Shown: piece by piece, positions 4,874 to 23,152 of the stretch
How positions within the stretch are numbered: position 1 is the first letter of the stretch
How the letters are laid out: the number at the start of each line of letters is the position of its first letter
Origin: Candidatus Bacteroides merdigallinarum
GTDB lineage: Bacteria; Bacteroidota; Bacteroidia; Bacteroidales; Bacteroidaceae
Reading direction: 5' to 3'
Length of the DNA stretch: 64,000 nt
Assembly: GCA_019116285.1 (NCBI GenBank)
Contig: DXBX01000032.1
Span: 1 to 64,000, forward strand
The notes under the pieces: model-generated
The model's database searches: none
Told to the model about the DNA's origin: nothing
What the model saw: the letters and a program-made list of their open reading frames with translations, nothing else
Program-made: the position numbers and the translations under genes

Positions 4874-5644
4874 TCAAGCCTTTTCGTCTTCTTCCAAATC
4901 TTTCATGAGTTTTTCCCATTCCTCTTCTGAAGGTTCGGGCAACGACTTGCCTGCCTCCTTCGAAGCCAGCAGTTCTTCCTGCACTTCGGCTGCCGGCTTG
5001 CAGATGATCTCGCAATCCTCATAGGCCGACAGATCGGCATTGGCATCCAAGGGGAAGCCTTCGTCGTTGAAGGTTTTCTGATAATCCTCTATTGCTTTCA
5101 AATATCCCCTGCGCAATTTCATCTGCTTCTTGATTTCCTTGATATCGCCCGCCGAAGCCAGCAATCCGGCAGCTGCCCCGATGCCTGCTCCCAGCCAGGC
5201 TTTCTTCTTGGAGCCGCCGGCCGCCTTGGCGGTCAAGGCGCCTGCCGCAGCACCTACGCCCATCTTCAGCAAGATGGCGCCACCCGACTTCAAGGCAGAG
5301 GCCAGATGTTTCTTGGCCGTGTTCGCATCGCACGCTTTGTTGTTTTGGTCATACACCAGATACTTGTACCGGATGGTACCGTCCTCGTTGCGGAGCGTAT
5401 CCCCGTTCTCGCCGGTTTCTATCATCTGCACCACGCGATAACTGGGCAAGTTGGCCAGGAATTCCTTCGTGGAAATACTGTCTTCCGGAGCCGTCGCAGC
5501 GGTGTCTGCCGCTGCTTCCGTCGTACCCGTCACCGTCTCTGCTGCTTTCTTCAGCTTCTTCAAGAATCCTTGCGCCGAAGCACCCGTTACACAAAACGCC
5601 ATCAATGCCAAGGCGCATACACTTTTCAAAATCAGTCTCTTCAT
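4874..5644 (-). CDS. Secreted/envelope protein with glycine-zipper-like segment (tubulin-like operon, gene 8)
   Basis: Signal peptide MKRLILKSVCALALMAFCVTGASA; GAAAGALTAKAAGG...GAGIGAAAGLLASAG. Confidence 0.75.
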   Translation of the reverse strand: MKRLILKSVCALALMAFCVTGASAQGFLKKLKKAAETVTGTTEAAADTAATAPEDSISTKEFLANLPSYRVVQMIETGENGDTLRNEDGTIRYKYLVYDQNNKACDANTAKKHLASALKSGGAILLKMGVGAAAGALTAKAAGGSKKKAWLGAGIGAAAGLLASAGDIKEIKKQMKLRRGYLKAIEDYQKTFNDEGFPLDANADLSAYEDCEIICKPAAEVQEELLASKEAGKSLPEPSEEEWEKLMKDLEEDEKA

Positions 5645-5712: not shown

Positions 5713-7293
5713 TTATTTGGTGTACATTTTTACCCTAAACTGTTTCTTCTTATAGGTACCGCGCGCCTGGCGCATCAGTTCCTCCAGGGGCATATAGACA
5801 ATCTTCTGCCCGGAATCCTCTTTGGGGCGGAACAAGATTCCCGTGGGCAGACTCTTACGATCCAACTCAATCTCGGCAATGCCGTCCGCACCGGATTGTC
5901 CGACCTGCTGGAAATTGTAGCCTTCGTTCTTGAGCATACGGCGGAATTTCTTGTCAGACGAAAAGGTGCTGGACGAGATTTGGCCGAACCCGCGATAGGT
6001 CCATATCTCCACACCCGGTATGGGATTGCCCTCGGAGAGGGTGAGCCACTCCACAAAGGTGAACTTCACCTGCAACTTCATGTCATCAAGCAGATTTTTC
6101 AACGATTCTATCCGCTTCAGGTAATAATCGTCCGGATTGAACTGATACAGTTGTTGCAGGTACGCAATACCATACGAGGCATAGTTGGATACCTCAGCCT
6201 GCGTAGCCTTTCCCTGCTTCTTCAGCGCGGCAATCTTCTGGAAACTGCGGAAAGCCAGCAGGTCATACAAGGCGCATGAGTCGCACAGGTTGATGGCCGA
6301 CTGGATGACAGGTTGCATCTCGCTCACCACGCTCTCTCCGGTGTTCAGAGCTTTGTCATACGCCTCGCGGGCAGCCTTATACTTGCGCATCCCGAAGAGG
6401 CGTCCTCCCTCGTCCATCAAGGCGCTGCATTGGGTGGTGAAGACTTCCTTTTCCACCACAATAGGCAACACGATGTAGGTGCGCTTGGCGCGAGGCGACA
6501 AATCCGAGATGTCCACGGACAAATAGTTGGTACCATCGCCATAAAGCAGCACGCTGGACAGATTGGCCAGTTTCCGGTCCGCTTCCTCCCACTGCGATTT
6601 GATGGCATCCATCTCGTCCCACTCCGGGGCATCCTCGGCCAACGTTCCTTCATCTACCATCGCGTCCAGTTCCGCCTTGCGCTTGTCCAGCCGCTCAAAA
6701 GCGTCACGAGCCTCATCAAGCTTGGCCAGCGGAATCACTACAGTGACCACCCACAACGATTTGTCCGACTTGCTGACTCCGCTGGTGACCTGCGCCTGCA
6801 ACTCGGGCGGACACTTCACCTGCAAGCCTTTGAGAGTCGTGGTAAACTCCAACGCAGCCTCCGTAGCATTGAAATGGACATCGTTGGCCTCCGTCTGATC
6901 TTCCAGACGGATAGGATTGGCCACTTCCTTCAAGCGAAAAGCCTGCAAGAAGTCCGGATTCTTCAGCTTTACCAGTTGGGTTGCCTTGTAAGGAACCCCC
7001 ATCCGGCTCACCTCCAGCTTGGGCTGCTTGGTGTCCTTCACGTCAATAATGACATAATAGCGGTAATAGCCGTCCATGCCGCGACCGTTCAGACGTACGG
7101 AAACCGGATACTTGGCATTCGTCACCGAAATGACCAAATCCTTGTGCTCCGACAAGATGAGCACGCCGCGGTTGCCGTCCAGCATCTCAAAGCAATCGGC
7201 CTCCGGCGCAGGATTCAATTCATTGATGCCCGTCTGCGCACTTATTGTCAAAGCCAGACAAAGGAGACAGCTTAGAAAAAGAAATCGTTTCAT
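5713..7293 (-). CDS. Conserved hypothetical secreted protein with TPR-like stretch (tubulin-like operon, gene 7)
   Basis: 526 aa; signal peptide MKRFLFLSCLLCLALTISAQ; beta-rich N-terminus, helical middle (KYKAAREAYDKALNTGE). Confidence 0.75.
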   Translation of the reverse strand: MKRFLFLSCLLCLALTISAQTGINELNPAPEADCFEMLDGNRGVLILSEHKDLVISVTNAKYPVSVRLNGRGMDGYYRYYVIIDVKDTKQPKLEVSRMGVPYKATQLVKLKNPDFLQAFRLKEVANPIRLEDQTEANDVHFNATEAALEFTTTLKGLQVKCPPELQAQVTSGVSKSDKSLWVVTVVIPLAKLDEARDAFERLDKRKAELDAMVDEGTLAEDAPEWDEMDAIKSQWEEADRKLANLSSVLLYGDGTNYLSVDISDLSPRAKRTYIVLPIVVEKEVFTTQCSALMDEGGRLFGMRKYKAAREAYDKALNTGESVVSEMQPVIQSAINLCDSCALYDLLAFRSFQKIAALKKQGKATQAEVSNYASYGIAYLQQLYQFNPDDYYLKRIESLKNLLDDMKLQVKFTFVEWLTLSEGNPIPGVEIWTYRGFGQISSSTFSSDKKFRRMLKNEGYNFQQVGQSGADGIAEIELDRKSLPTGILFRPKEDSGQKIVYMPLEELMRQARGTYKKKQFRVKMYTK

Positions 7294-7311: not shown

Positions 7312-8331
7312 TTACAAATCAAAGGCTCCCAGCGTGGAGATATCATCATCCGGCTGCTGGCGCACGCCACCCACCCACTCAGGTTGCCAGGTGCGCACAT
7401 GGATGATAGGGCTGCCGCCGTCTTCGGGGAACTCCCACAGCAGGAAGAGGTAGCCCTCGTCGCTATAACTGCTGGATTTCCACTCCTGACGCAGGCGCAC
7501 GCCGTACATGGTAGGATTCACCACGGAGCGGGTGATGCCGGCGCAGCCGCCTTCTTCTCCGTTCTCGCCAATCTCGCTGAACTTGACTTCAATCCACTTG
7601 TTGCGCAGGAATGCTTTCTTCAGATTGCGGATATACTCTTCCTTGCTCTGCTTGTTGTAGCGCACCTTCTGTGTCATCACCCCGCGGTCGTCATTGGAGC
7701 GGACGGTAACCACCGTGCCTGTGATAATCAACGCATCATCACTGAAAATCTGGTTGATAAAATCAATATCCTTTTGGTTATAAGCCGTGCGGAAGCGCTC
7801 GATATACTGCATGATGACCATCTGCTTCTCTTTCTCCACCACACTGCCACAATGCTCCAGGCTCTCCGAAAGCTGGGCATCCAGCGCCAGACGGAAATCG
7901 GTCAGACGCCCCCGCGCATCAAACTCCACGATGGCTTCCTGATAAGTTCCCACGCCGAAATCTTCTTCTTGCGGCGTGATGATCAAGGGGATATGACTCA
8001 CCATCATCGTGCCGTCTTCGAACACCCAACAACGCTCCACCACTTCCTCGTCGTCGCAATAGAACGGTGTGACCGCCCACAGGCGCAACAGCGAACGGAG
8101 CGAAAACTCGTCCATGGGCAGGCCGTTGGTCGTCAGGATGCTCTTGGCCTGCTGTGCGCGGTTGATCTCGGTCAACACACGCCCCAGATTGCGTGCGGCA
8201 TTCTCCAGCGCAGCCGGACGGTCTACCCCTTCGTCGATGGTCAGGGTCACTTCCACAGCCTTGCCCTCGTTCACTCCCCACCAAAAACAGGCAGCCAGGA
8301 TGAACATTATTCGTGTCAATCTCATCTTCAT
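7312..8331 (-). CDS. Secreted hypothetical protein with NTF2-like segment (tubulin-like operon, gene 6)
   Basis: 339 aa; signal peptide; RFRTAYNQKDIDFINQIFSDDALIITGTVV resembles SnoaL/NTF2-like domains. Confidence 0.7.
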   Translation of the reverse strand: MKMRLTRIMFILAACFWWGVNEGKAVEVTLTIDEGVDRPAALENAARNLGRVLTEINRAQQAKSILTTNGLPMDEFSLRSLLRLWAVTPFYCDDEEVVERCWVFEDGTMMVSHIPLIITPQEEDFGVGTYQEAIVEFDARGRLTDFRLALDAQLSESLEHCGSVVEKEKQMVIMQYIERFRTAYNQKDIDFINQIFSDDALIITGTVVTVRSNDDRGVMTQKVRYNKQSKEEYIRNLKKAFLRNKWIEVKFSEIGENGEEGGCAGITRSVVNPTMYGVRLRQEWKSSSYSDEGYLFLLWEFPEDGGSPIIHVRTWQPEWVGGVRQQPDDDISTLGAFDL

Positions 8332-8382: not shown

Positions 8383-9069
8383 TTAATCCACCTTGATGCC
8401 GATGGCGCCACAGCCTCGGTAATTCGCGATGCCATCCGGCTTGCCTGTCTTCACATTCAGGCGCTCAGGTCCCGGTGTCAACACGGCCACCACTTGGGCT
8501 TCTTTGTTGTATATGACCAGGTAACATTCATCCGGGTCGTCCAGCGAAGCATAGCGTGCATACTCCTCTATCTTACCTTCTTCCTTCAGCTGCTTCACCT
8601 TTTCAGCCATTTTGTAATAGTCTGTATAATCCGCTACCACTTGGATGGCCTCCGGCAGAGTCGGCTGCAGTTTCTCTTCCACAGCCGGCAGATTCTCATT
8701 GGCAATGACTACTGCATTCTCCGTAGGCAGGATATCACTTTTCTTGACATAAACAAAGTAGCGGAACATATTGCTTCCCCGAGGCATGGACAGCGTTGTC
8801 CACAACTCCTTACGGTTGTTCACCACCAGGTTGGCACTGCCTTTCAGCTTCTTTTGCGTGGCCACCCATTTGTTGACCTCGTCATACAGCCGCTCCTCGG
8901 CATAAGCACGTGCATCTGCCTCCGTGGGGGCTGTAGACTCCGCATAAATGTATTGCGAACTCTTCTTGATTTGGTTAATCTGTTTCTTCACATCATCCAC
9001 AGGGCCGGCGAACAGGGTCATCGGCACAAGACAACAAAGAACAAACATCCACCACATTATTCTATTCAT
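8383..9069 (-). CDS. Secreted hypothetical protein (tubulin-like operon, gene 5)
   Basis: 228 aa with signal peptide; start overlaps the stop of the next upstream gene. Confidence 0.75.
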   Translation of the reverse strand: MNRIMWWMFVLCCLVPMTLFAGPVDDVKKQINQIKKSSQYIYAESTAPTEADARAYAEERLYDEVNKWVATQKKLKGSANLVVNNRKELWTTLSMPRGSNMFRYFVYVKKSDILPTENAVVIANENLPAVEEKLQPTLPEAIQVVADYTDYYKMAEKVKQLKEEGKIEEYARYASLDDPDECYLVIYNKEAQVVAVLTPGPERLNVKTGKPDGIANYRGCGAIGIKVD

Positions 9070-10187
9070 GATTTCGGGTCTATAGAGTTAGTTATGAAGA
9101 ATTTTTCTGTAATGTTCTGCAAGGGAGTAAAGGCATAGAGTGTACCCACGAGGGTAGCCTCGCCTTGTATCCACCCGTCCGAAACGGACAAACTGAGTGT
9201 ATGGCAGTAAGCCAATCCGAGATGGACAGCAAAAAGGGTCACTTCCTGCCCGCTCTCCTTCGATTCCTTCACTCCCACGTAAAGCCGGCAACCTTCGTTC
9301 TCGCAATAGCGTACCCACTGTTGCAAGGTCAGATCCATTACCTCCTTGGCATGGCCATACTTGTCCAATGTCAGTTTGAGAGGCACAGGCCAAGGTGCGC
9401 AACCCGTCAGCAAGAGATTGTTGAGCGTCTGCCGGGGCCATGCCTCATCCCACAGAAGCCGCCACATCCCTTGTCCGTCTTTGCGCAAGAATACGCGTGA
9501 ACGTATCATCTCACTCAGGAAAGTCCCCGCATCTGCCACGGCCATTGTATCCGCCTGCGACACCGGACATCCATGCCAGGCCGCGGGGAGGGAATCTCCC
9601 ATCAGATCGGCCGACGTACGCAACAGGTCGCGCTCCAATATTGCCTCCTGCTCCAACAGATTGACTCCCCAAATGGTCTGGCAATCAGCTTGAACCACCA
9701 GGCAGACTTTACCATCTCCCTCACCCCAGGTCAACTGATACGCACGTCGTTCCTGCGCTTGTATCTGAACAGGTGTTTCGGGAGTCAACGACTTTAACAT
9801 TGTAGCGTTGCCTTGCAGGAAGGAGACTGCCTTACGGCTGGTGAACTCCGCCTTGTCCTCGGGAGGCAAGACATCCTCTTCGAGGGCATAACGCTCCACG
9901 AAGTCCAGCACCGGACGCTCCGCGGAAGTAGCTGCCCAACGGGTATCGAACAACTTATAACCTATGTGAGACACATCGCCAAAGCTATTCGTGCGTATCC
10001 GCAAGGTCCTACCCCGGAAACTCCACGTGGAGTCATTGTCCACACCGGGGCTCAGCGTATCCGGCAAGGCCAACCCGATGGCACGGGCCAACCTTTCCAG
10101 ACACGAAGTATGGTATGCGGGGGTAGCCATCGCTCCGCAAGCGAAAGCTACCACCACTCCTACCAACAGGCAACGCCGCAGGTTCAT
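9066..10187 (-). CDS. Secreted hypothetical protein (tubulin-like operon, gene 4)
   Basis: 373 aa; signal peptide MNLRRCLLVGVVVAFACGAMA; 4-bp overlaps with both neighbours. Confidence 0.75.
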   Translation of the reverse strand: MNLRRCLLVGVVVAFACGAMATPAYHTSCLERLARAIGLALPDTLSPGVDNDSTWSFRGRTLRIRTNSFGDVSHIGYKLFDTRWAATSAERPVLDFVERYALEEDVLPPEDKAEFTSRKAVSFLQGNATMLKSLTPETPVQIQAQERRAYQLTWGEGDGKVCLVVQADCQTIWGVNLLEQEAILERDLLRTSADLMGDSLPAAWHGCPVSQADTMAVADAGTFLSEMIRSRVFLRKDGQGMWRLLWDEAWPRQTLNNLLLTGCAPWPVPLKLTLDKYGHAKEVMDLTLQQWVRYCENEGCRLYVGVKESKESGQEVTLFAVHLGLAYCHTLSLSVSDGWIQGEATLVGTLYAFTPLQNITEKFFITNSIDPKS

Positions 10188-10819
10188 GGCTTCACGGCTG
10201 TTTGATTGCCATCATGTTTCCAATAACCCAAGCCGCTGATCCGGCCATCCCGGAACTCACCTTCAAAGGTATCGCCGGGACTTGCCACGAAATCTTTCGA
10301 CGATACAATCTTATGGGACTTCTTGTAAGTGATGGTTCCATAGCCGTGGGGCTTTCCGTTCTTCAGGTCACCGGTATAAGTGCCGTAACCCAGATCCACC
10401 GTACCCCGTCCGTTCAGCACTTGGGGTGCAGGAGCTTCCTTCTCGGGTGTTTTTTCTGCCGAAGTTTCAGGCTCCTCGGCCACTACGGGAGCAGCTGTCG
10501 TATCGGCAGGCTCTTCCGTCACAGTCACCGGAGGTTCATTCACTACCTCGGGCTGTTCTTTCGTATCTCCCGACGAGAAGAAATACCATCCACCGCCGGC
10601 CAGTGCCACCACTGCTACTCCAATGAGCACAAATTTAAGCCAATTGGTAGGGGGAGGAGGGGGCGGACACTCACGCAGCGGTTTGCCGCACTCCTCGCAC
10701 ACAAATTCTTTACGCGCGGAAATCTCCTGGACTTCCTTCGCTTTCGCCTTAGAGCACTGATCGTTCAGGCACATTCCATATCGGGCACGTATATGTCCCG
10801 GTTGATTCGGTCTTGTCAT
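10184..10819 (-). CDS. Zinc-ribbon-like / poly-Pro / single-TM / MORN-repeat protein (tubulin-like operon, gene 3)
   Basis: CLNDQC...CEECGKPLREC, PPPPPP, TM FVLIGVAVVALAGGGWYFF, MORN motif GYGTYTGDLKNGKPHGYGTITY. Confidence 0.8.
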   Translation of the reverse strand: MTRPNQPGHIRARYGMCLNDQCSKAKAKEVQEISARKEFVCEECGKPLRECPPPPPPTNWLKFVLIGVAVVALAGGGWYFFSSGDTKEQPEVVNEPPVTVTEEPADTTAAPVVAEEPETSAEKTPEKEAPAPQVLNGRGTVDLGYGTYTGDLKNGKPHGYGTITYKKSHKIVSSKDFVASPGDTFEGEFRDGRISGLGYWKHDGNQTAVKP

Positions 10820-10831
10820 AGTTTGAAATTA

Positions 10832-13800
10832 TTAATTAACGGATTGATTCATGATGGGCGGAGGTACCACGCCGCCTGTCGGGGGCATCGGAGGCATCTG
10901 CGGGGTAACAGGAGGCGCGAACAGCGGTTGCAGCACAGGCACCGTCGAAGCGGGTGCCCATGCCGGCATACCCTCCATCCACACCATGGTCTGCGGAGTC
11001 AATTGCCCGGCAGCGACCATCTGCTTGCAGGAATCGTAATTATACGGGCCGTATTGCTGGGTACCCATGCCTATGTACAACGAAATGACCGGCGTCTGCA
11101 TGGGCGGAGGCACAGGTGCCCCACCACCCAACGGAGGAGGAACCGGAGCGCCCCCGCCAACGGGCGGCATCGTAGCTCCCGGCATCTGCATGCCACTTCC
11201 CGCCATGGGCTGCGGCTGGGCGGCTGCTGCCTGTCTGGCTAACTCCTGTGCCGCGATTTCCTCCGCATTGTCCACGGCAAACAACGGCGGGAACTGGCTG
11301 CCGTCTCCCTCGCTGTGCAACAGGATGGCATTGCCTGCATCCGTAGCCGGATTGCCCGTATGCAGGAATTGATCATAACGCTGCTTGTAGGGCGCCATCC
11401 AGTCAATGGCACGCATGGGGAAGCAATAAGCCACCGTGATAATGGACAACTCGTCTTTGCGCAAACTCTTGCGGTTTACGGTAATGGAGGTACGCGCCGT
11501 GCTTTGATTGAACGAATTCTTGAAGGCGGTTTCCAACTTATCGGCAAACTTCTTCAGCCCCTCATTCTCGTCCGGCGAAGGGATGGACACCAAGATGGCT
11601 TTCTTACAAGTGCTGGCCGGATTGGTCGGACTCAGGTTGCCTTCATTGTTGCGCAAGTGCAACTGAATCTGGTCGTTGTTCAGCTTCAGGTACACGCCAC
11701 TTTGACTGACAATCTTCGAGGCAAACGCCTTGATGTCGTCATCCGTCTTCAGTTTCTGCTGCAACTGGGTCAGAATGTTCAATCCCAATACCTTCTCGTC
11801 GCTATCTGCCTTTTCATCGTGCTTGGCCTTGACAATGGCGGCCAGTTTCACGTCAAACGCATCCTTGATGTCGTCGATGCTGATGTTGTTGGACAAGATA
11901 CCGAAGTTGATAAACTCTTCCTTCGGCAAGATGGCATCGCGCAACTGGCGGGCAATGTTAGGCATATCCACCTTGTCCACCTTGATGTCTACCTCGAATT
12001 CCTGCATCTTCTCGTCTTCGCTCACCTCGATGATAGCCCCCTTCATATCCTCCAAGCCTTTGTTCACCTTGCGCTGGGCAACAATCAGCTTCTCGGTTTC
12101 CTCGATGGCATCGTTGATTTTCTGGCTGAACATCAGGATATCCGCATCCATCTTGCCCAACTCGGCAAAGACTTTGGCAGCCAGTTTCTTGGCAAATTCC
12201 CAAGCCACCAGCATCGTTTTCGCCGTATAGTAGTCCGTCAGGATGTTCTGATGGTCGCCATACAGACGGGCGCCCTTACCTACCATGCGTTGCAGGACTC
12301 CCAGGCGGCTCCACTCGTACACATTCGCATTGCGGTCCTGGTCGCAGGCTTCGTAATTGTTCTTCTCTTCGTTAGCCTTTGCCTCTATCTCTCCACGGAT
12401 TTCGCTCATGCGCTCCAGCAACAGTTTGGATACCTTCTGAAGCTCCACGATGGACACATCGCCCAACTTCCATTTATCAAATAGTTCGCTCTCTATCCGA
12501 TGGCGGATTTCGCGGGCCATTTCGGGGATGGCGCGCTCCTTGCCGGCAAAGAAAGTTTCCACTCCTTCCTCACGGAAATGCTGCACGTAGAACTCGCCCA
12601 TGATGTTATCCAGCTCGTTCAGCGGGCAATCCGCCTTCTTGGCCTCTTCAGCATAGGCGATGGCCTTGTCGTGCCAATAGTCGTTGAACGTGGGATAATC
12701 AGCATCCGACTCCAGCACCTTCACGTTCAGCGTCAGGTGGGAGTCATCCAGCATCCAATGGGTCAGGTTATCTTTGTTCAGATATTCCTTGCGATAGTCC
12801 TTGTTCTTCTCCTCGTTGACAAATCCCTGGTTTTCACGCCAGTTGTTATACTTGAACTGATAGAGGATACTTTCGCCCACCGTATAAGTGATATGCTTCA
12901 GGATACGCAGTTCCGGATACATCACGCGCTTGATGCCGAAAGAATTCAGCTTCTTGGTACGTGCCACCCGGATGCGCCCGTCCGCACCCGGATTGGCCGT
13001 TTCGTCAAACTCCAGCGCAAACTCGTCCATGTTCTCAAACTGGTAGGCGCGGATAATGTCGCCGTTGATCTGATCTTCACTGTTCACGAAGAAGATGCGG
13101 GCAAAGACATAATCGCTGACAATCTTGGGCAGTTCCTGCAAGGAATTGATGGTCAAACCATTGTCATTCACGTTGCTGTAAACGGTCAGCCCGTCGGCCA
13201 CGCCTTTGATACGGTCGTTATACAACTTGATTTCTCCACGCCCTGTCACATCCTGCGGATTCCAACGTCCGGCCTGCAAAGCGTTCAGCTCCACCATGGC
13301 CGCATATCCGTTTTGGTAATAACGGCCCTGATCCATATCGCTCTTGGGCAGGTTCATCTCGGGAATCATGACGTACGCCAGGACCCTGGCATCGGGGAAG
13401 GTCTTGCGCGTCTGCGTAACCACGTCGACAATGGAACCCGAACCGGTGCCGCCACACAAGCCGGCAAAGATATGGATGGTCTTCACATCGGAATTGCCGG
13501 ATACCAACTCGCAACGGGCATAGGCATCGCGCAGGCTGTTGACATAGCCGATGGCGTTCGCCGCGAAGAGCAAACGGCCCGCACGGCGTTTCTGTCCGGC
13601 AGCCTGCCCCAGCGAACCGATGGCCGACTTGACGGCAGACACATTATCCACAATGCCCTTCACCGAAGGATAGTTATTGATATGATCCAGGATATGCTCC
13701 ACATCCACGGCCTTGATATTCAAGAATTCATTGTTGGTGAACGATGCGTCCTGCCCCATCACGCGGAAATCCGGGCGTGCCCGTCCGTCCTTGGGCATCA

Positions 13801-13969
13801 TCTCGTCCGTAGAATCCACGTACAACAGGGCTATGGGCAACTTGGCCCGCTCTTCCTGCGTGGGAAACTCCTCGAACATACGCATTTTGAAGGCGCGCAG
13901 GATTTTACCGCCTGTACCTCCCAACCCAACCAAGATATGGTTGCCGTGGCAAAAATTTGTCTTTGTCAT
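10832..13969 (-). CDS. Large tubulin/FtsZ-superfamily-like protein with C-terminal GYF-like domain
   Basis: 1045 aa; N-terminal HILVGLGGTGGKILRAF, tubulin signature FAGLCGGTGSGSIVD, long helical middle, Pro-rich linker, C-terminal QQYGPYNYDSCKQMVAAGQLTPQTMVWMEGMPAWAPA. Confidence 0.85.
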   Translation of the reverse strand: MTKTNFCHGNHILVGLGGTGGKILRAFKMRMFEEFPTQEERAKLPIALLYVDSTDEMMPKDGRARPDFRVMGQDASFTNNEFLNIKAVDVEHILDHINNYPSVKGIVDNVSAVKSAIGSLGQAAGQKRRAGRLLFAANAIGYVNSLRDAYARCELVSGNSDVKTIHIFAGLCGGTGSGSIVDVVTQTRKTFPDARVLAYVMIPEMNLPKSDMDQGRYYQNGYAAMVELNALQAGRWNPQDVTGRGEIKLYNDRIKGVADGLTVYSNVNDNGLTINSLQELPKIVSDYVFARIFFVNSEDQINGDIIRAYQFENMDEFALEFDETANPGADGRIRVARTKKLNSFGIKRVMYPELRILKHITYTVGESILYQFKYNNWRENQGFVNEEKNKDYRKEYLNKDNLTHWMLDDSHLTLNVKVLESDADYPTFNDYWHDKAIAYAEEAKKADCPLNELDNIMGEFYVQHFREEGVETFFAGKERAIPEMAREIRHRIESELFDKWKLGDVSIVELQKVSKLLLERMSEIRGEIEAKANEEKNNYEACDQDRNANVYEWSRLGVLQRMVGKGARLYGDHQNILTDYYTAKTMLVAWEFAKKLAAKVFAELGKMDADILMFSQKINDAIEETEKLIVAQRKVNKGLEDMKGAIIEVSEDEKMQEFEVDIKVDKVDMPNIARQLRDAILPKEEFINFGILSNNISIDDIKDAFDVKLAAIVKAKHDEKADSDEKVLGLNILTQLQQKLKTDDDIKAFASKIVSQSGVYLKLNNDQIQLHLRNNEGNLSPTNPASTCKKAILVSIPSPDENEGLKKFADKLETAFKNSFNQSTARTSITVNRKSLRKDELSIITVAYCFPMRAIDWMAPYKQRYDQFLHTGNPATDAGNAILLHSEGDGSQFPPLFAVDNAEEIAAQELARQAAAAQPQPMAGSGMQMPGATMPPVGGGAPVPPPLGGGAPVPPPMQTPVISLYIGMGTQQYGPYNYDSCKQMVAAGQLTPQTMVWMEGMPAWAPASTVPVLQPLFAPPVTPQMPPMPPTGGVVPPPIMNQSVN

Positions 13970-14003: not shown

Positions 14004-14627
14004 TTATCTTCTCCGGCTAACTCGGATTCTGTTTTGGCGTTGTGTTGTCCCGCGCGGCCGGTTCATCGGGGCACGCTCCGTCATGCGGCCCGAACTCAGG
14101 CGCTGGCGGTTGTGACTGCGGGTGATGGTCTTGATGACGATGATGGCACCTATCACCACAAAGACCAGCGACCAGCAGACACGGCGCAGGATGAAACGGT
14201 TCATGTAGCTACGCAGCTCATCGGCCATGGCAGCACCTATCGTAGCGGAAGTATGTCCCTGAAAATCGGCCATGTTGACGTAATAGCCCACCAGCGGCCA
14301 TTCTTCGCTGATGCGATCCAAGATTTGCTGACTGTCCTCCGTAGAGAACGGTATATCGTCGGGAACAGCGGCCACCATCCCATTGATGGCCGTCTCCACA
14401 TCGTCGCAATAAGACTTGATGGTGACCGCCCCGCAAAGCAGGACTGCCTGGAAGGCCAGAAAGAAGAACAGGATGCCGCCCACCACGAAACTCATAGGCG
14501 TGAACGTGCTGTCGCGCCACCAGGAACGTATCAGCACGAACATCAGCACGATGCCCACGATTGTCAAGAACACGCCGAGCAGCAAACTGCCCACGGAATA
14601 CATTAGGATATTGACCAATGCTCCCAT
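14004..14627 (-). CDS. Multi-TM membrane protein (tubulin-like operon, gene 1)
   Basis: 207 aa, three hydrophobic segments and a strongly basic C-terminus; 34 bp upstream of the tubulin-like gene. Confidence 0.75.
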   Translation of the reverse strand: MGALVNILMYSVGSLLLGVFLTIVGIVLMFVLIRSWWRDSTFTPMSFVVGGILFFFLAFQAVLLCGAVTIKSYCDDVETAINGMVAAVPDDIPFSTEDSQQILDRISEEWPLVGYYVNMADFQGHTSATIGAAMADELRSYMNRFILRRVCWSLVFVVIGAIIVIKTITRSHNRQRLSSGRMTERAPMNRPRGTTQRQNRIRVSRRR

Positions 14628-14788
14628 ATCTTTTATAAATAGCGCCTATAGAAATCCCCAGATTCGGCATTTTCATTAAAGTATCCAAAGGTGTGAGATT
14701 CTTTACTCCGCCTGCTTACCATCGCAGATGTCCGTACCACCTTCGCTTTGCTATTGAACTCATCCCTTTCCAGGGACATAGCACAGGG

Positions 14789-14796
14789 CAAAGGTA
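14789..14796 (-). promoter_or_regulatory. -7 box (TACCTTTG) of putative promoter for the tubulin-like operon
   Basis: CAAAGGTA on + strand; ATTG about 20 nt further upstream could be the -33 element. Confidence 0.5.
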
Positions 14797-14994: not shown

Positions 14995-15948
14995 TTAGTT
15001 CATCAGCAACCACGCTTCCAAGTCTGTGGACGACGGGTCTTTCAGTAAGATGGTCTTGTCCGTGTCCAGCTGGTAGAGGATGGGCATGGCGGGCAGGTCA
15101 TACAGATGTCGTTCTACGATGCCCTCTGTGTCCATCGCCACTGTCCACTCCGCAGGCATGTCGCCTCTGGTCCGCTTCCACAGTTCTCGGTCGCCCTCGG
15201 TATAGACAGCCAACACGCTCAGCTTCTTCTCAACCACCAGCCCGTGTAGCACAGGGCTGTCTTGCAGCGTCCGCAGTATTTCCGCGCAATGCCCGCACGC
15301 CGGGTCATAGAACAGCAACAACAGCCGGCTGCCTGCCGCCGTGTCGTGCAACCGCCCACGCCTGCCCTCCCGGGTAAGATAACCGAAATCCGTTGCCATG
15401 CTCCCCGGACGATTCTTCCGAGCAGTTTCCAATTGGTAGGCCGGACGTAGCCGCTCTTCTTCCGGCAAACCACGCAAGCGTAATAGCCCTTCCAAGTAGA
15501 GGATATAATACGTCTCATTGCGCATCGGCGAATTGGGATCATTGAGATAACGCTCCACCACACTGGTAAACAACCGAAAAGCCTCCTTGTCCTTCACGAT
15601 ACGCCCCAAGGCACTGTCCACACAACGGGGCAAGACCGCCTCGTCCGCATGGGGAAACAGAGACAGCCAGTTGACAATGCTCTGCTCCATGAATCCATTG
15701 TTATGACTGCGTAGGGTGTCACGTAAGTCCAACCCCTCCCAGTAGTGCGCCAAGATATAGGCCGCCCGCTCCGAGGGAAGGGTCAAGGAAGACGGGACTT
15801 GCGGCAAGGCCAGTTCCTTTCGTACAGACAATGAGTCTATCGGTGGCTTATTACCCGTCTTTTCCGAAGGAAGCCTATTCGATTGACAGGAACCCATATA
15901 GGCAATAACGGCCAACGTACATATAATATAGTTCCCCCTCATATTCAT
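14995..15948 (-). CDS. Thioredoxin-fold lipoprotein, DUF5106-like
   Basis: Lipobox YMGSCQS; LLLLFYDPACGHCAEIL CxxC motif; start overlaps the preceding stop. Confidence 0.75.
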   Translation of the reverse strand: MNMRGNYIICTLAVIAYMGSCQSNRLPSEKTGNKPPIDSLSVRKELALPQVPSSLTLPSERAAYILAHYWEGLDLRDTLRSHNNGFMEQSIVNWLSLFPHADEAVLPRCVDSALGRIVKDKEAFRLFTSVVERYLNDPNSPMRNETYYILYLEGLLRLRGLPEEERLRPAYQLETARKNRPGSMATDFGYLTREGRRGRLHDTAAGSRLLLLFYDPACGHCAEILRTLQDSPVLHGLVVEKKLSVLAVYTEGDRELWKRTRGDMPAEWTVAMDTEGIVERHLYDLPAMPILYQLDTDKTILLKDPSSTDLEAWLLMN

Positions 15949-18419
15949 TTATGATCTCGTACACATCTGATTGGACCTGCCATTGATTTCACATAATACA
16001 TAGGGAATGAAGTTTCAAAAATGTGGAACAGTCCTGCACTGTTATGAATATGCAAGATGTTTACCCGGAAATTGTCATCGGTGGTAGCGTTATGATAATT
16101 ACCACATCTTCCTACACGCATGACCCCACCATCAGCAACCCTCGTTCCTTGTGCCGGGAAAAAAGAAACAGGACCTTGTTTCCAATCCGTCATAAACATA
16201 TACATGCCTTCCTCGCCAAAAATATTCTTCTGGCTATCCGTGTTTATTTCCTCATATGTTCTAGGATTCTCACCGGTAGACGTAAATCCCAACCAGATAT
16301 CCCCAGGAGGTACACGCCATCCTGAAGGACAAGGATCAAATATCGTCTTTTGCTCGCCATAATTGTCATAAATATGCACACGATTATTAGTAGTATAATA
16401 TTTCATATTTTCAGGATCAGGCTTCAAGCCTCCCCAAAGTCCTTCATCATGCCTCCAGGTCCAGTCTCCATTATTTTGGTAATTAGATAAGTTCTCTACC
16501 GCAGACTCCCCCATTTGGGCATTTTTAGTTCCACACATGAAAACTGTCGGGTTTTTCACTGTAAATCCGATAGGATCCGGCAATGTCTCTTTCGTTATTT
16601 CCATTCCTTGCCGTGAATGAAAGAGCTTGCTCTCGTCCGTCCCAATGGTTTTCTCAACTGCTGTTTGATTGTCATTTCCATAGTGTATGCCTGTTCTTGC
16701 ATCTGTATAATCTGTCCCAGCATCGCCACTATAAGCAGGCGGAAACGGATCCTTTCTTCCCCATTGATACAACATGCCGTAAGTACCAGTCACATCTTTC
16801 CCGTCGGGTTCGTATCGCAATGCTCCCAGATTACAAGGCATAACGTCATAGCCGGGTACCCGGATGTTCGTTTTGATGCCGTCCTCATTCCAAGCATAAG
16901 TGGTATATAAGATGGCACTGCTGACATTGCCGGGTTCATTCTCCGTCACCCAGATATGCCATGACCAGAGGATTTCTCCTTGGTTGTTGAACGCGGCAAT
17001 CAAGGCATTGCCCCGTTGCCCGGCGCGCACATAGATTTTCCGATGGAATTCCTGTTGCCCTTTTTCTTCTGGTGTCAAATCACTGCCTGCCGGAGCCGGA
17101 TCTATCCATACAAGGTTACCATCACTATTATCACCAATGGCATCTTTTGTTTGCCAGATGATGGCCACGTTTTCAGTCATAATAGTACTTGCATTGATTT
17201 TCTTGTCATCATCTGTTCCATAAGCATTGAGATAATCCGTGAAATCATAACCGCTTCCCGTTTCCACCCGGTAATAAGGCAAAAACGACAAAAGTTGCCC
17301 CGGCTTGACCACAAAACAGTTGGACGAGGGGGTATCCTGCTCATACGTATCTGTATATATGTTCAATTGCACCTGATAGATATAATTGCGGCGTATATTG
17401 TAGTCATTGTAATTATTGCCACCCGGATACCAACTGTAGGTCCGTCTGCTTCCCTCATCGTGATCTCCGGTGAAGATATCCACATAAAAGGCCGTGAGCT
17501 GAATACCGAATGCGTGATCTCCTTTCTTGGTTTTCTGCTCGGGATTAGCTTCATTATTATCACTGCATCCTTGCAGGTTTTCCGGGATGTATATCACGAT
17601 TTGACCCGCATACTGATCATTTTCATTTTTATTCCCGGGCTTGAAGGCGCGTGAATTCCAATACTCCCTTCCTGTAGGATAAACGGCTGCATCATTCAGA
17701 TTTTCGTCCTCCAAGGTGCTGACACGACAATAATACGGGATATCCATGGCATTCACGTCCGTCAGTTCTATTGTTTCCGGGATAGCCCCCACGGTGATTA
17801 TCACTTTGGCATACATCCTTGTCAACTGGATGTTTACAGTTCCATCCGTAAAAGTAACATTCGAGGCATTGCCTTCCATTGGGATGTCCAAATTCATAGA
17901 TTCTCCCGTTGTTTGTGTTTCAGTCCCTTCTTCTTTTACACCCAAGGCATCTTCGCCGACAATGATTCTAGGGTCTGGCAATGTAAGGTTCCGTAATTGT
18001 TCCAAAGTACCAGCATTTTCCACGGTAGCCCAATCATCACGGCCGATATTGGCAACCACATAGACAGTTGTATTAGCCACATCAGTTCTCAACAGCACTT
18101 CCACTTCAGCCCCGCCCTCTCCCGGATCTACATCATCAATGTCATAATAACGCGGAGTTATGAGCAAATTGCCGTCTTGCCCATATTGGAATACCCAAAT
18201 ATCATTAATCATCCGCTCCGCCGGAGTATCTTCCGTCTCACTACGTGTCTGCAAGGTTGTTTGCATTTCCGTGACGCCCAGCGAGAGCGACACATCCACT
18301 AACTTGGAATCATCCACGATAGAAGTTGATTCCCGACTCTTTGGCCATTGGTCGGCACAAGACGCAAAGCATGCCAACAACAGCATTCCATATAAATACG
18401 AAATCACATTGTCTTTCAT
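15945..18419 (-). CDS. Large fimbrial-tip-like lipoprotein (DUF4906/FimB-Mfa2-like)
   Basis: 824 aa; lipobox LLACFASCADQ; INDIWVFQYG...VYVVANIG pattern; C-terminal ...YQWGRKDPFPP...IFDPCPSGWRVPPGD. Confidence 0.75.
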   Translation of the reverse strand: MKDNVISYLYGMLLLACFASCADQWPKSRESTSIVDDSKLVDVSLSLGVTEMQTTLQTRSETEDTPAERMINDIWVFQYGQDGNLLITPRYYDIDDVDPGEGGAEVEVLLRTDVANTTVYVVANIGRDDWATVENAGTLEQLRNLTLPDPRIIVGEDALGVKEEGTETQTTGESMNLDIPMEGNASNVTFTDGTVNIQLTRMYAKVIITVGAIPETIELTDVNAMDIPYYCRVSTLEDENLNDAAVYPTGREYWNSRAFKPGNKNENDQYAGQIVIYIPENLQGCSDNNEANPEQKTKKGDHAFGIQLTAFYVDIFTGDHDEGSRRTYSWYPGGNNYNDYNIRRNYIYQVQLNIYTDTYEQDTPSSNCFVVKPGQLLSFLPYYRVETGSGYDFTDYLNAYGTDDDKKINASTIMTENVAIIWQTKDAIGDNSDGNLVWIDPAPAGSDLTPEEKGQQEFHRKIYVRAGQRGNALIAAFNNQGEILWSWHIWVTENEPGNVSSAILYTTYAWNEDGIKTNIRVPGYDVMPCNLGALRYEPDGKDVTGTYGMLYQWGRKDPFPPAYSGDAGTDYTDARTGIHYGNDNQTAVEKTIGTDESKLFHSRQGMEITKETLPDPIGFTVKNPTVFMCGTKNAQMGESAVENLSNYQNNGDWTWRHDEGLWGGLKPDPENMKYYTTNNRVHIYDNYGEQKTIFDPCPSGWRVPPGDIWLGFTSTGENPRTYEEINTDSQKNIFGEEGMYMFMTDWKQGPVSFFPAQGTRVADGGVMRVGRCGNYHNATTDDNFRVNILHIHNSAGLFHIFETSFPMYYVKSMAGPIRCVRDHK

Positions 18420-18426
18420 AATCTCC

Positions 18427-19488
18427 CTAATGAGTGGTTTCTGGCAATTCTCTAATTATCAAATTCACATCGTAGATATGATTCCGTTTGATATTAAAAT
18501 CATTGGCGGCATCAAGACCTGGATATACGGTATAAGTATGTTTTAGATTCTCACCGTAAGATACTTTCAAGTGAATGGTTAGCGCATTTGTAGGAATTTC
18601 TCCCGCTATCTCCTGCTTTGATGTCATGCCTTCCACTTTACCTTGCAAATTCTCCGGGACATAGAGTATGGCTTCGCTGACATTTCCGCAATCGAATGTT
18701 TTCCACTCTATGTCTGTCGGATAATCGCCCTGCTGACTTTCATCTTGCGAAGCCACTGTTCCTACCCGGCAGTAGGCCGGAATATTTGAATAACTGAGGT
18801 TTTCTATATACATACCCTCAGGAATGTAAGACATATCCACCCCAACGTCTACTCTCGCAAACATTCTGTAGAGCGGAACACTGACATAACATTTGGAAGA
18901 GATGGTCATGTCTTTGGAAATGCCAAACATCGGAATGGTTCTGCCATTCTCCGCACTGCTACCTATATCGGCAGACAAGAAAGGTTGGGCAGCTTTGTCC
19001 GGAATGGCTTGCTCTAAAAAACCGGCATAGGTAGTAAAACCAGTCGCAACAGTTCCTTCGGTACCCTCATAAACCCAGTTCTCATCACCAGTATTGGCCA
19101 CAATGCAAATGCGTGACTGCTCTCCTTCGCCATTCTGTGCCAAGTTCACCAATATATCATTGGCATTCAAATTATTGTCTCTATCAATGTATACAGGTTC
19201 ATGCAGGCTTTCGCCTGTAATAGCATTAAACTGAAATACCCAGATATCATTGATCAGGTTTTCGTCATCGGCTCCTGCCACCACCTTTGTTTGTGGACTC
19301 ATTGCAGCAGAAAAGCCCCCGACTTCCAGCAAAAGAGTTGCGGGACAAGAATTGCCCTCATCCGAATGTCCCGGAGCCAAGCAATCATCATCCGCACATG
19401 AAGACATCATATACAGGCTAATGAAAAAGAAAAGCATCTTAAGGCTTTTCCCACAGCTCATTCCAATGCACAATAGCTTCTTCTGCAT
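18427..19488 (-). CDS. FimB/Mfa2-like fimbrial lipoprotein
   Basis: 353 aa; MSSCADDDC lipobox; NLINDIWVFQFNAITGE...ICIVANTG. Confidence 0.75.
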   Translation of the reverse strand: MQKKLLCIGMSCGKSLKMLFFFISLYMMSSCADDDCLAPGHSDEGNSCPATLLLEVGGFSAAMSPQTKVVAGADDENLINDIWVFQFNAITGESLHEPVYIDRDNNLNANDILVNLAQNGEGEQSRICIVANTGDENWVYEGTEGTVATGFTTYAGFLEQAIPDKAAQPFLSADIGSSAENGRTIPMFGISKDMTISSKCYVSVPLYRMFARVDVGVDMSYIPEGMYIENLSYSNIPAYCRVGTVASQDESQQGDYPTDIEWKTFDCGNVSEAILYVPENLQGKVEGMTSKQEIAGEIPTNALTIHLKVSYGENLKHTYTVYPGLDAANDFNIKRNHIYDVNLIIRELPETTH

Positions 19489-19494
19489 AAACTG

Positions 19495-20718
19495 TCAGAA
19501 TTCATAATCGTTATTTATTTCATCATCCCAAGGAGCCACTGGCGAAACAACTTGTCCGTCACCGTATTCGAAGATGTTTTCGTAGGTACCAAACCAATTC
19601 TGTACGGCCAAGGTCAAGGTATAATCATAGCCCGTACATTTCACGCGGAAACGATACAGATTGTTTCGCTCAATGTTCAGCCTGTTTTCATTGTTATTAT
19701 CAGGCTTGCCTCCCGTATATTGGGAGAAATATATCTTATGTGGCACATCGTTGCCCACCTGAATATTAAACTTTGCCTCTACGCACGCATAATCTTCACC
19801 TGTATCCTTGTTCTCGTATTCAGGAAGGTAAGCAATCCATTTTTCTATTATTTTATCGCTATCAGTGGCATCCGCATCCCGACTGACTCTCAAGAAATTG
19901 CAGTTTTCTCCGATTGCACTTCCCTCAACCAAATGCAGCGTTTCCGCGTAATCATTCTCCCAATTGCCATCATGGTCATAATCTTCTTCCGAATAAACTG
20001 CCGGAGCGCAATAGCCTTTCAGATTGTAACGGCTGATTCGCACCCAATCAAAAGATAGATTGAAAAAATTGTCCGTTTCCAGTATCACCTCCACCTTCGC
20101 CATCGCCCGCAACAATGTGATAGACTCAGACAGCAGCGTGGCCTCATTCGCCTTGAAGCTGACATTCTCGTAGGTATGCACTCCGTAGAACGGCATTCGA
20201 TTGTTCTCACTTAGAACGAAACTATTTGGAAAATCAAATTGTGCCCACTCCGCATTGCAGATATTCTCAATGGTAGTGGTTCCCGCAGTCAATGTTTCAT
20301 CTTGATACTCCGGCCAATTCGCCAATATCACAATTTTGAACTTACTGTACCCGACCAAAGCTTCCGGTACTTCACCCAACAAGGTATAATCCACATAGTC
20401 CGTTCCTTCTACAGACATCACGTCCGCCGCCTCAAAACGAGTAATGAACTTGTTGTCCGTATCGAAGAAATATATCCGATACCCATCCTCCGACATGTCA
20501 ATGTAATTCTCGTAAGTGCTACCGGCCTCATACCCTTCGGTGGGAGCATTGGACGGTACCCGCAGAATCATGCCCAACTGTTGCCCATCCGCAGGAACCA
20601 CGGGCAATGCCTCCTCCGGCTGACAAGCAGTCAGCAACGACAGCAGGCACAGCAGAACTACTGGCATGCATCGGACAATATGCGTACTCGTTCCTTTCAT
20701 CTTACAACTCCGCATCAT
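19495..20718 (-). CDS. FimB/Mfa2-like fimbrial lipoprotein
   Basis: 407 aa; lipobox LLSLLTACQPEE; IYFFDTDNKFITRFEA...KIVILANWP. Confidence 0.75.
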   Translation of the reverse strand: MMRSCKMKGTSTHIVRCMPVVLLCLLSLLTACQPEEALPVVPADGQQLGMILRVPSNAPTEGYEAGSTYENYIDMSEDGYRIYFFDTDNKFITRFEAADVMSVEGTDYVDYTLLGEVPEALVGYSKFKIVILANWPEYQDETLTAGTTTIENICNAEWAQFDFPNSFVLSENNRMPFYGVHTYENVSFKANEATLLSESITLLRAMAKVEVILETDNFFNLSFDWVRISRYNLKGYCAPAVYSEEDYDHDGNWENDYAETLHLVEGSAIGENCNFLRVSRDADATDSDKIIEKWIAYLPEYENKDTGEDYACVEAKFNIQVGNDVPHKIYFSQYTGGKPDNNNENRLNIERNNLYRFRVKCTGYDYTLTLAVQNWFGTYENIFEYGDGQVVSPVAPWDDEINNDYEF

Positions 20719-20740: not shown

Positions 20741-21778
20741 AATATAACGTGAGTTCGACGAATTCAGAACAATGCAAGCTGTGTGTCAACTGTTCGTGAA
20801 ACATTGATACACGGCTTCTTTGGAAAGCAACAATATGCAGCAATACCAGAAAGAAGGTTGACGATAAAGTTATCAAAGGCTCTATGCCTTGAATGTTCCA
20901 CTTGTGCTATATTTTTGAGTTCATCATTGACGGTTTCGATAATGGCTCGTTTCCTGAGGAGTAGTTTGTCTGAAAGTGGCATCAATGATCCTTTCATATT
21001 GCTTTTCAGTTTGGTTATAAGTTGTATGCCGTCAACGAATAGTCTTTCAAATAGGTTCTTGCCGATGTATCCTTTATCACCAACAAGCTTCCCATAGATA
21101 AATTCCACAAAAGACTTGTATTCAAGAGATTTACGGTCATCCACATCTCCGGGAGTAATCATGAAGTTCAGAAGTTCTCCACGCTCGTTGCATATCAGAT
21201 GCAGTTTGAATCCGAAGAACCAGCCCATGGAACATTTTCCTCTTTGTGCTATTCCCTTGAACGTTTTATGGATATGGATTCTCTGGTTCTTGCATACTCG
21301 TAAGGGGGTACTGTCAACGAAACTGATGCCTGTGCACTTGCCCAAAAGCACCTTCTTGATAAACAGAGCCAGTGGGATAGCCACCTCTTTTTCCAGCTCA
21401 ACAAAACGGTTATAAGAAACAACCTTTGGAAAAAGATGCCGCATATGCTTGCAGACCTTTTCCAGATAGAAATGCTTCAGACAACGGTATCCCGAATCAT
21501 GAAAAAGAATCAAGATGAGCATGATTTCTGCCTTGGACATGGTGGAATCACGATGATATTTGCGTTTTTTTGCCGGCTTAAGCGTATATTTTGTCATCAT
21601 GGCATCAAAAAACTTGCAGAATTCATCTGCCATACAAAATAATTCTATAACTTTGCTTTCGGTGATCATAGCGACTATTGTTTGTAAATCTTTGTAATTC
21701 AGCACTATAAAGATACAACAATTTTCGCTAATCACCAATTTTACAAGTACTTATAATTCATCGAACTCACGTTATATT
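20741..21778 (-). mobile_element. IS982-family insertion sequence
   Basis: Transposase ORF bounded by imperfect inverted repeats AATATAACGTGAGTTCGACGAATT (left) and AATTCATCGAACTCACGTTATATT (right); exact ends and TSD not resolved. Confidence 0.85.
20764..21738 (-). CDS. IS982-family transposase
   Basis: 324 aa; FVDSTPLRVCKNQRIHIHKTFKGIAQRGKCSMGWFFGFKLHLICNERGE and VGDKGYIGKNLFE DDE-type motifs. Confidence 0.9.
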   Translation of the reverse strand: MVISENCCIFIVLNYKDLQTIVAMITESKVIELFCMADEFCKFFDAMMTKYTLKPAKKRKYHRDSTMSKAEIMLILILFHDSGYRCLKHFYLEKVCKHMRHLFPKVVSYNRFVELEKEVAIPLALFIKKVLLGKCTGISFVDSTPLRVCKNQRIHIHKTFKGIAQRGKCSMGWFFGFKLHLICNERGELLNFMITPGDVDDRKSLEYKSFVEFIYGKLVGDKGYIGKNLFERLFVDGIQLITKLKSNMKGSLMPLSDKLLLRKRAIIETVNDELKNIAQVEHSRHRAFDNFIVNLLSGIAAYCCFPKKPCINVSRTVDTQLALF

Positions 21779-21812
21779 ATACTATTATATACCTTAGTGC
21801 GCAAATATAGCA

Positions 21813-21851
21813 AAGAATCCCCATAACCACGAAGTGATTACAGAGATTCTT
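21813..21851 (-). terminator. Hairpin downstream of the tyrosine recombinase (possible terminator)
   Basis: AAGAATC...GTAATCACttcGTGgTTAT...GATTCTT. Confidence 0.45.
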
Positions 21852-21871
21852 ATCAATATCCCTTCTGGAGC

Positions 21872-23152
21872 CTAAAAAGCAGTTCTACTGCCAAACACAA
21901 ACTCAATCACTTTCCTGTTGGCTTCATTTTCCAGTCTGAAGTCCCTTTCAATATAAATGTCCGTCACTTTCATGGATTCATCTATATGGTTGAGGGCTGC
22001 ATGGACTGTGTACTTGTCTATTCCTACCTTGTTCAAAGCAATGGTAGCCCATGAATGCCTTGCAGCATAATATTCCAAATCATCTACTTTTAGCAACTTG
22101 CCAATCTCTTTCAGACCTGCGTTAATAGCCCTGTTGAAGTTATTGGCGGTAGAATAGTTATGATAGAAGTTGAAGATTCTTTTTCTTGTGAAATCCCTGT
22201 ATTTATGGATAATAGGCATGAGCATGGTTGGGATGATGACTTGCATCTTGGCTTTATCCAATCTTCTTCCCTTGGTCTTAGTCCTGTAATAGGTGATAAC
22301 TCCATCTTCCAATTCCGAACAATTGTACAAATCTACGGAATTCATGCCTATCAGACAGAAAGACAAGATGAAGCAATCCTTTGCCAGATTATAGGGGCAT
22401 ATTCTTTCTCTGCCATTGGTGCTGTTCAGGATATAAGGTAGTTTCCAAATTTTCTTTATCACTTCTGGAGATAGTGCCCTTTTTCTGGTAGCCTCCTGTT
22501 TGGGTAGTTCAATACCTTCAAAAGGGGAATTGTGAATGAGGATAATCCCCCTGTCATGGTCATTATACTTTTTCTTGGCTTCATTGAACAAGTGCCTGAT
22601 GCTTCCTAAATAGAGTGATACGGCTCTATTGGAAGGTATCCTTTTACCTTGCCTTTCAAGTTCTGCCGTTCTTATAGCCCTTTTCTCTAAGAGGTATTCC
22701 ATGAACCCCTTAATAAGGTCTTTGGTAAGTTGGTTTGTCGGCAAACTATCCTTGCCAATATAGGTGATAAAAGAGTTTAGGGCGGTCTTGTAGTTTTTCT
22801 TTCCCCTTATTCTTGTCTGTTCCAACCATTCTTTGCAGAACTGGATGAAGTCAATGTTTTTATTCTTTTCTTGTGCAACTTTGATAAACTCAAGGATTTC
22901 GTCAATGCTGTAGTTGGATGCTTCCATGGGAAGGGTGGCACATATCTCTTGATACTTCCTTACTAGAGCATCTGCTTCCTTGATGAACTGAGGATTCTTT
23001 AATTTGAGTGACTTGGTGAGGTCGCAGGGTCTTACAAAGATATTAGTGGACAGCCTTTTGACTTCTCTGTTATGGGTCATTCTTATCTTTACATTGTAAG
23101 TTCCGTCAGCTTTTTGTTTGTTCTTTAGAATTTCCACTTTGAATGTCAGCAT
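21872..23152 (-). CDS. Tyrosine-type site-specific recombinase/integrase
   Basis: 426 aa; catalytic RHSWAT box (YYAARHSWATIALNKVG) and C-terminal Tyr region. Confidence 0.92.
   Translation of the reverse strand: MLTFKVEILKNKQKADGTYNVKIRMTHNREVKRLSTNIFVRPCDLTKSLKLKNPQFIKEADALVRKYQEICATLPMEASNYSIDEILEFIKVAQEKNKNIDFIQFCKEWLEQTRIRGKKNYKTALNSFITYIGKDSLPTNQLTKDLIKGFMEYLLEKRAIRTAELERQGKRIPSNRAVSLYLGSIRHLFNEAKKKYNDHDRGIILIHNSPFEGIELPKQEATRKRALSPEVIKKIWKLPYILNSTNGRERICPYNLAKDCFILSFCLIGMNSVDLYNCSELEDGVITYYRTKTKGRRLDKAKMQVIIPTMLMPIIHKYRDFTRKRIFNFYHNYSTANNFNRAINAGLKEIGKLLKVDDLEYYAARHSWATIALNKVGIDKYTVHAALNHIDESMKVTDIYIERDFRLENEANRKVIEFVFGSRTAF

Follow-up and report, generated by a model that had tools for sequence, protein, structure and literature searches.

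A GYF-fused Tubulin_2 protein and its conserved envelope-associated operon in Bacteroidales

The FtsZl1 family, which corresponds to Pfam Tubulin_2, was described in 2010 by Makarova and Koonin and spans diverse bacteria and archaea, including one Bacteroides member (PMC2875224). A mostly helical C-terminal domain is typical of its layout, though not obligatory, and the family was tied to vWA, GTPase and OmpA-like partners, the vWA protein and P-loop GTPase being found in the majority of its operons, not in all (PMC2875224). A study from 2023 regarded Tubulin_2 members as FtsZ-like but divergent (PMC9871819), and our literature searches gave no functional study of the family. The 2010 description makes no mention of GYF domains (PMC2875224), and no publication on a Tubulin_2-GYF fusion was found in literature searches of incomplete coverage. 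Here, we describe a locus of Candidatus Bacteroides merdigallinarum (assembly GCA_019116285.1) for which sequence comparison demonstrates the family, intact nucleotide loops, a GYF domain, a conserved operon and, at both ends of an adaptor, domain swaps. The window, that is, the whole stretch of DNA analysed, comprises 64,000 nucleotides of contig DXBX01000032.1. The Tubulin_2 family was already known; new, as far as checked, are its GYF-bearing clade, the operon and the adaptor with its swappable ends.

The first-pass annotation of the window had proposed a tubulin-like GTPase with a fused GYF-like domain at 10832-13969; these coordinates are right, but the minus strand of the ORF had been overlooked. 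Both motifs it pointed out, VGLGGTGGK and CGGTGSGSIVD (residues 172-182), are present in the translation, together with the Pro-rich linker and the C-terminal GYF block, and its several hundred residues of charged helices appear in the AlphaFold model as helices 470-501, 507-554 and 565-631. The proposed fusion is borne out by Pfam profiles, both far above chance, with 161 bits for Tubulin_2 (PF13809; cut-off 27) and 55.6 bits for GYF_2 (PF14237; cut-off 25.8), while the classical Tubulin/FtsZ model gives a match below its cut-off. They are the sole Tubulin_2 and GYF_2 matches found in the assembly (genome about 81% complete). What the annotation had missed is the description of FtsZl1 in 2010, Bacteroides member included (PMC2875224); the operon is a larger novelty than the fusion.

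With FtsZl1 the 1045-aa protein shares the Tubulin_2 domain, the T1 and T4 loops, a length of about 1000 aa, membrane-protein neighbours and a long coiled coil after the GTPase domain, which is predicted here as helices 507-554 and 565-631. The mostly helical C-terminal domain, in contrast, is absent, and the Pro-rich linker and GYF domain stand in its place. The T1 and T4 glycines are invariant among 98-99 aligned relatives, bar a few gapped (incomplete) rows, and little or no variation is seen in T1 GGTGG, T4 GGTGSG, N220, N268, D286, E312 and N313 across relatives, the closest named one being Candidatus Bacteroides pullicola (92% in the best segment). The first-pass annotation had made its proposal depend on a structural match to tubulin, and in an AlphaFold model built with 46 relatives as alignment (mean pLDDT 87.1, pTM 0.74) the best match among solved structures is CetZ (E 1.2e-6, TM-score 0.50 by target), followed by bacterial tubulin BtubAB(C) and eukaryotic tubulins, with E-values of 1e-6 to 1e-5 for the top PDB matches. 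A PDB sequence search by the tubulin profile returned a designed helical protein and nothing else, and the tubulin assignment therefore stands on Pfam and fold. Residues 789-848 run strand, helix, strand, strand in the model and resemble the FtsZ C-terminal domain, from which we infer a possibly split tubulin/FtsZ C-terminal domain; because of this order of elements, the coiled coil is suggested to be an insertion in an FtsZ-type C-terminal domain. Profile comparison with and without the insert recovered the T4 loop only and was discarded as sequence proof of such a split.

FtsZ with its tethers FtsA and ZipA offers a second comparison: FtsZ too is a cytosolic tubulin homologue, and for the present protein a membrane tether is proposed by analogy. 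As the first-pass annotation had held, the protein is distinct from FtsZ: it has no Pfam match to FtsZ_C, the genome has a separate canonical FtsZ on another contig (G000:C47), and no division genes were seen alongside the tubulin gene. Judged by its sequence, it is a divergent member of the tubulin superfamily, belonging to FtsZl1/Tubulin_2, fused to GYF_2, a domain of the peptide-binding type, and apart from FtsZ.

The gene lies in an operon (14627-4874) of short gaps, all on the minus strand, that runs from a three-TM protein through tubulin and adaptor to S3-S7 (Table 1), the export (signal peptides) of S3-S7 being judged by eye and hydropathy. The order of tubulin, adaptor and exported genes is kept in all 101 fetched loci, among the genes present, and all six first (core) genes occur in 77 of the 101, most others being cut by contig ends or ORF calling; the gap between tubulin and adaptor genes has a median of 36 bp across loci. 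These partners are missing from other Tubulin_2 loci in the genus (L013, L015, L019). Unlike the described FtsZl1 operons, this one has no kinase gene, and no vWA protein, P-loop GTPase or OmpA was found in it by Pfam.

The Bacteroides -7 family of elements has the consensus TAnnTTTG. The sequence TACCTTTG 5' of the operon, which we take to be a Bacteroides-type -7 element of this kind, recurs 5' of the shikimate kinase gene that comes next after S7, and the transcription unit would therefore extend from about 14780 to 4874. Genome-wide, the -7-type motif is about 3-fold enriched over its own reversed control, and 11 were found within the window against 1.3 expected. Between the promoter-like element and the first gene lies an untranslated leader of about 150 bases (14628-14788), which gave no Rfam match. 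The Arg-rich tail of the three-TM protein is conserved and may be a second contact to tubulin.

Table 1. Features of the tubulin operon, in positions of the window.
Feature	Position	Strand	Basis or remark
TACCTTTG, -7-type element 5' of operon	14789..14796	minus	motif enrichment
First operon gene: 207 aa, three predicted TM helices, Arg-rich C-terminal tail	14004..14627	minus	
Tubulin_2 (FtsZl1)-coiled coil-Pro-rich linker-GYF_2 protein	10832..13969	minus	1045 aa ORF
Tubulin_2 GTPase-type domain, residues 12-368	12866..13936	minus	Pfam 5.6e-47; CetZ/tubulin fold match
T1 loop VGLGGTGGK, residues 14-22	13904..13930	minus	glycines invariant except gapped rows
T4 signature loop GLCGGTGSGS	13433..13462	minus	GGTGSG invariant except one gapped row
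Coiled-coil region, long helices, residues 507-631	12077..12451	minus	AlphaFold secondary structure
Beta-alpha-beta-beta unit, residues 789-848	11426..11605	minus	element order in AlphaFold model
Pro-rich disordered linker, residues 918-963	11081..11218	minus	sequence; pLDDT <50 over most
GYF_2 domain, residues 965-1012	10934..11077	minus	Pfam 4.5e-15
Pro-rich C-terminal tail 3' of GYF	10835..10933	minus	sequences of relatives
Adaptor: zinc ribbon-CPPPPPP-TM-MORN-like domain, 211 aa	10184..10819	minus	
Zinc ribbon of adaptor, C17, C22, C41, C44	10688..10771	minus	invariant 39/39
Polyproline immediately 5' of TM helix in adaptor	10649..10666	minus	sequence
S3 exported protein, 373 aa, no known domain	9066..10187	minus	
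S4 exported protein, 228 aa, no known domain	8383..9069	minus	
S5 exported protein, 339 aa, C-terminal NTF2-like domain	7312..8331	minus	Csd6 C-terminal-related
S6 exported protein, 526 aa, locus-variable	5713..7293	minus	
S7 exported glycine-zipper protein, 256 aa, last operon gene	4874..5644	minus	

Members of the adaptor family have a single TM helix, usually preceded by a CPPP motif; the stalk varies, with Big_2 in some cases, and leads to a MORN-like domain. Zn-ribbon Pfam matches occur in some members. The zinc ribbon accompanies tubulin and the MORN stalk accompanies S3-S5, a pattern that an adaptor would show. When 393 Bacteroidales genomes were searched with the adaptor (E <= 1e-7), 13 were positive: the eight zinc-ribbon adaptors belong to exactly the eight genomes with tubulin, whereas four of the 12 adaptor-type proteins with S3/S5 partners carry kinase (L203) or TIR heads (L197, L208, L209) on the same MORN stalk, in genomes without a tubulin match. 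The thirteenth (L220) combines a kinase with multiple MORN repeats; its contig is short and contains no S5, and it may not be related to the others. Zinc-ribbon heads are thus distributed 8:0 against 0:5 by tubulin presence (Fisher p = 0.0008, or by hand p = 0.002 minus L220, both uncorrected for kinship). At the other end, a Paraburkholderia tubulin of 28% identity is followed by a zinc-ribbon-TM protein with a non-MORN periplasmic part. The membrane protein resembles an adaptor of swappable parts, its two ends exchanging separately; the head swaps come from few loci. The TIR-TM-MORN genes lie at L197:9979-10953, L208:6629-7435 and L209:7710-8864, the kinase-TM-MORN gene at L203:3987-5537, each immediately next to S3/S5 genes.

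Among the exported proteins aligned, S5 shows the strongest conservation. An NTF2-like C-terminal domain appears in its model, with Bd1075, a wall carboxypeptidase, as second fold match, and the Csd6 C-terminal NTF2 model matches 19 of 38 S5 members, weakly in single sequences (best 2.5e-6); the window's own S5 matches DUF4440 only, below cut-off. The likeness to the wall enzymes Csd6, Pgp2 and Bd1075 lies in this domain, whereas a catalytic carboxypeptidase domain was not found in S5. The Csd6-type NTF2-like domain of Pgp2 binds peptidoglycan (PMC8038945). Fold and partner searches with S3 and S4 gave no usable match, and relatives of S6 have weak TPR and carboxypeptidase-regulatory matches. 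The module also occurs elsewhere: S3-S5-S6 are found without tubulin alongside Sel1/TPR proteins (L193-L195), S3/S5 beside a caspase-like gene (L196) and S3-S5 beside a TIR-Sel1 gene (L207). The caspase-like (Peptidase_C14) protein near S3-S5 in L196 (L196:5016-6749) is itself exported and has Sel1 repeats. An S5-like NTF2 domain ends longer proteins in Bacteroides-type genomes (L198:9463-11319 and L199:9705-11588), with WG repeats in L198.

The locus is patchily distributed, with 24 of 160 species of the genus and eight of the 393 sampled genomes of the order carrying it, and cultured carriers include Xylanibacter brevis ATCC 19188, Phocaeicola faecium Sa1YUN3 and Caecibacteroides pullorum AN421. 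Phage records held no match to the locus, and phage or plasmid cargo was rejected, with zero phage matches and a single match to a Paraburkholderia megaplasmid. A PADLOC-type defence system was likewise discarded, the matches being marginal (best 0.0015).

The presence of GYF was scored in 104 aligned relatives, of which 101 were scorable, on a tree built from the core minus the C-terminus. GYF is present in 61 and absent from 40, and its label changes once on the tree, with 99% support, so that the fusion is old, single and clade-specific in Bacteroidales. Same-operon relatives without GYF have at its place a helical extension, as judged from sequence. The adaptor has PPP in 52 of 60 loci with GYF against nine of 39 without, so that it is missing from eight GYF-bearing loci and present in nine that lack GYF. 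This raw association is strong, but coevolution of GYF and polyproline was rejected: GYF arose once, the independent-pairs test has one pair, and the association of a single evolutionary event is therefore no evidence of partnership.

In the Myxococcus gliding machinery, GltJ joins a cytosolic zinc finger and a GYF domain to a TM helix. It is reported, in work of Attia and colleagues from 2024 that PMC12288465 cites, to recruit the cytoskeleton. The GltJ model NF033761 of NCBIfam matches the GYF region at E 2.1e-5 but scores 23.8 where the cut-off is 450, so that the protein is no equivalog. GltJ is the nearest working analogy for the mechanism proposed below, although the two parts that it unites are divided here, GYF belonging to the tubulin and the zinc ribbon to a membrane protein of its own.

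Taken with the kinase and TIR heads that the same outer parts carry in related bacteria, the gene set of this gut-type bacterium suggests a signalling or scaffolding machine of a kind not described before. Our preferred reading, which we hold tentatively and at slightly less than even confidence, is a GTPase scaffold that is tethered to the membrane and coupled to an envelope module in the periplasm, which may read the wall. The tubulin protein would be the cytosolic part of an envelope-spanning apparatus tethered to the inner membrane, binding GTP and self-assembling via its tubulin domain and coiled coil. This assembly would be fixed to the membrane by the adaptor's zinc ribbon and connected by the MORN-like domain to the exported S3-S5, where the part of S5 may be to read peptidoglycan or to hold it; in its own clade, GYF possibly helps by binding a Pro-rich stretch, either the adaptor CPPP or its own tail. 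Because the tether would link the assembly with the exported proteins, we propose that the GTP state is coupled to the state of the envelope. The apparatus would be a wall-anchored scaffold, or else a sensor with assembly as its output. Were the coupling true, it would provide a second route, besides FtsA/ZipA, for a tubulin homologue to meet the bacterial envelope, and would link cytoskeletal modules with TIR/kinase signalling modules. For the Tubulin_2 family, the locus supplies a small and conserved group of partners along with a named adaptor in the membrane, cultured hosts and simple binding tests. A broader version, in which the tubulin GTPase is one interchangeable output, with kinase and TIR, of a common transmembrane adaptor with a wall-reading periplasmic module and the wall state controls filament assembly, seems to us rather unlikely.

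The step ascribed to GYF has its own alternative, compatible with the tethered scaffold: GYF may bind the Pro-rich tail or linker of the protein itself, head to tail, and serve assembly only, not the adaptor. The Pro-rich tail that follows GYF in its clade (typically PPxPPxGGxxPPP) and the variable occurrence of PPP in the adaptors of that clade speak for this, but the tail motifs fit the classical PPG-hydrophobic ligand poorly and the adaptor CPPP adjoins the membrane in most members; we regard self-binding as a real possibility somewhat short of probable. The main rival to the tethered scaffold as a whole is a modular conflict or signalling system, in which the exported module serves as the sensor of damage or of an invader and tubulin is an interchangeable output replacing kinase or TIR. 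The MORN stalk with S3/S5 under kinase and TIR heads, the caspase-like and TIR-Sel1 neighbours of S3-S5 and the patchy presence are as such a system would have them, but PADLOC gave no meaningful match for the eight operon proteins, the phage records held no match, there is no sign of clustering with defence genes, and kinase and TIR heads equally fit ordinary signalling, so that we consider a conflict role improbable.

In the proposal of Makarova and Koonin, FtsZl1 belongs to a machine for membrane remodelling or vesicles (PMC2875224), which could apply here if the vWA and GTPase partners had been swapped for other envelope proteins. The protein is of the same family and its operon is rich in envelope proteins, but the partners on which their evidence rested (vWA, P-loop GTPase, OmpA) were not found in the operon, and other Tubulin_2 loci of the genus occur without it; we think remodelling distinctly doubtful.

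Some loci have further tubulin genes. L013, L136 and L139 each contain two Tubulin_2 genes, which lie side by side in L136 and L139 and might form a heteropolymer pair, and in L044 a complete operon is followed by another tubulin ORF, partial and GYF-bearing. Upstream of the operon in the window are a DUF5106/thioredoxin-like gene and FimA/DUF4906-type fimbrial genes (14995-20718), which are not conserved beside the operon in relatives, followed by a DDE transposase and a phage-integrase-type gene (20764-23152).
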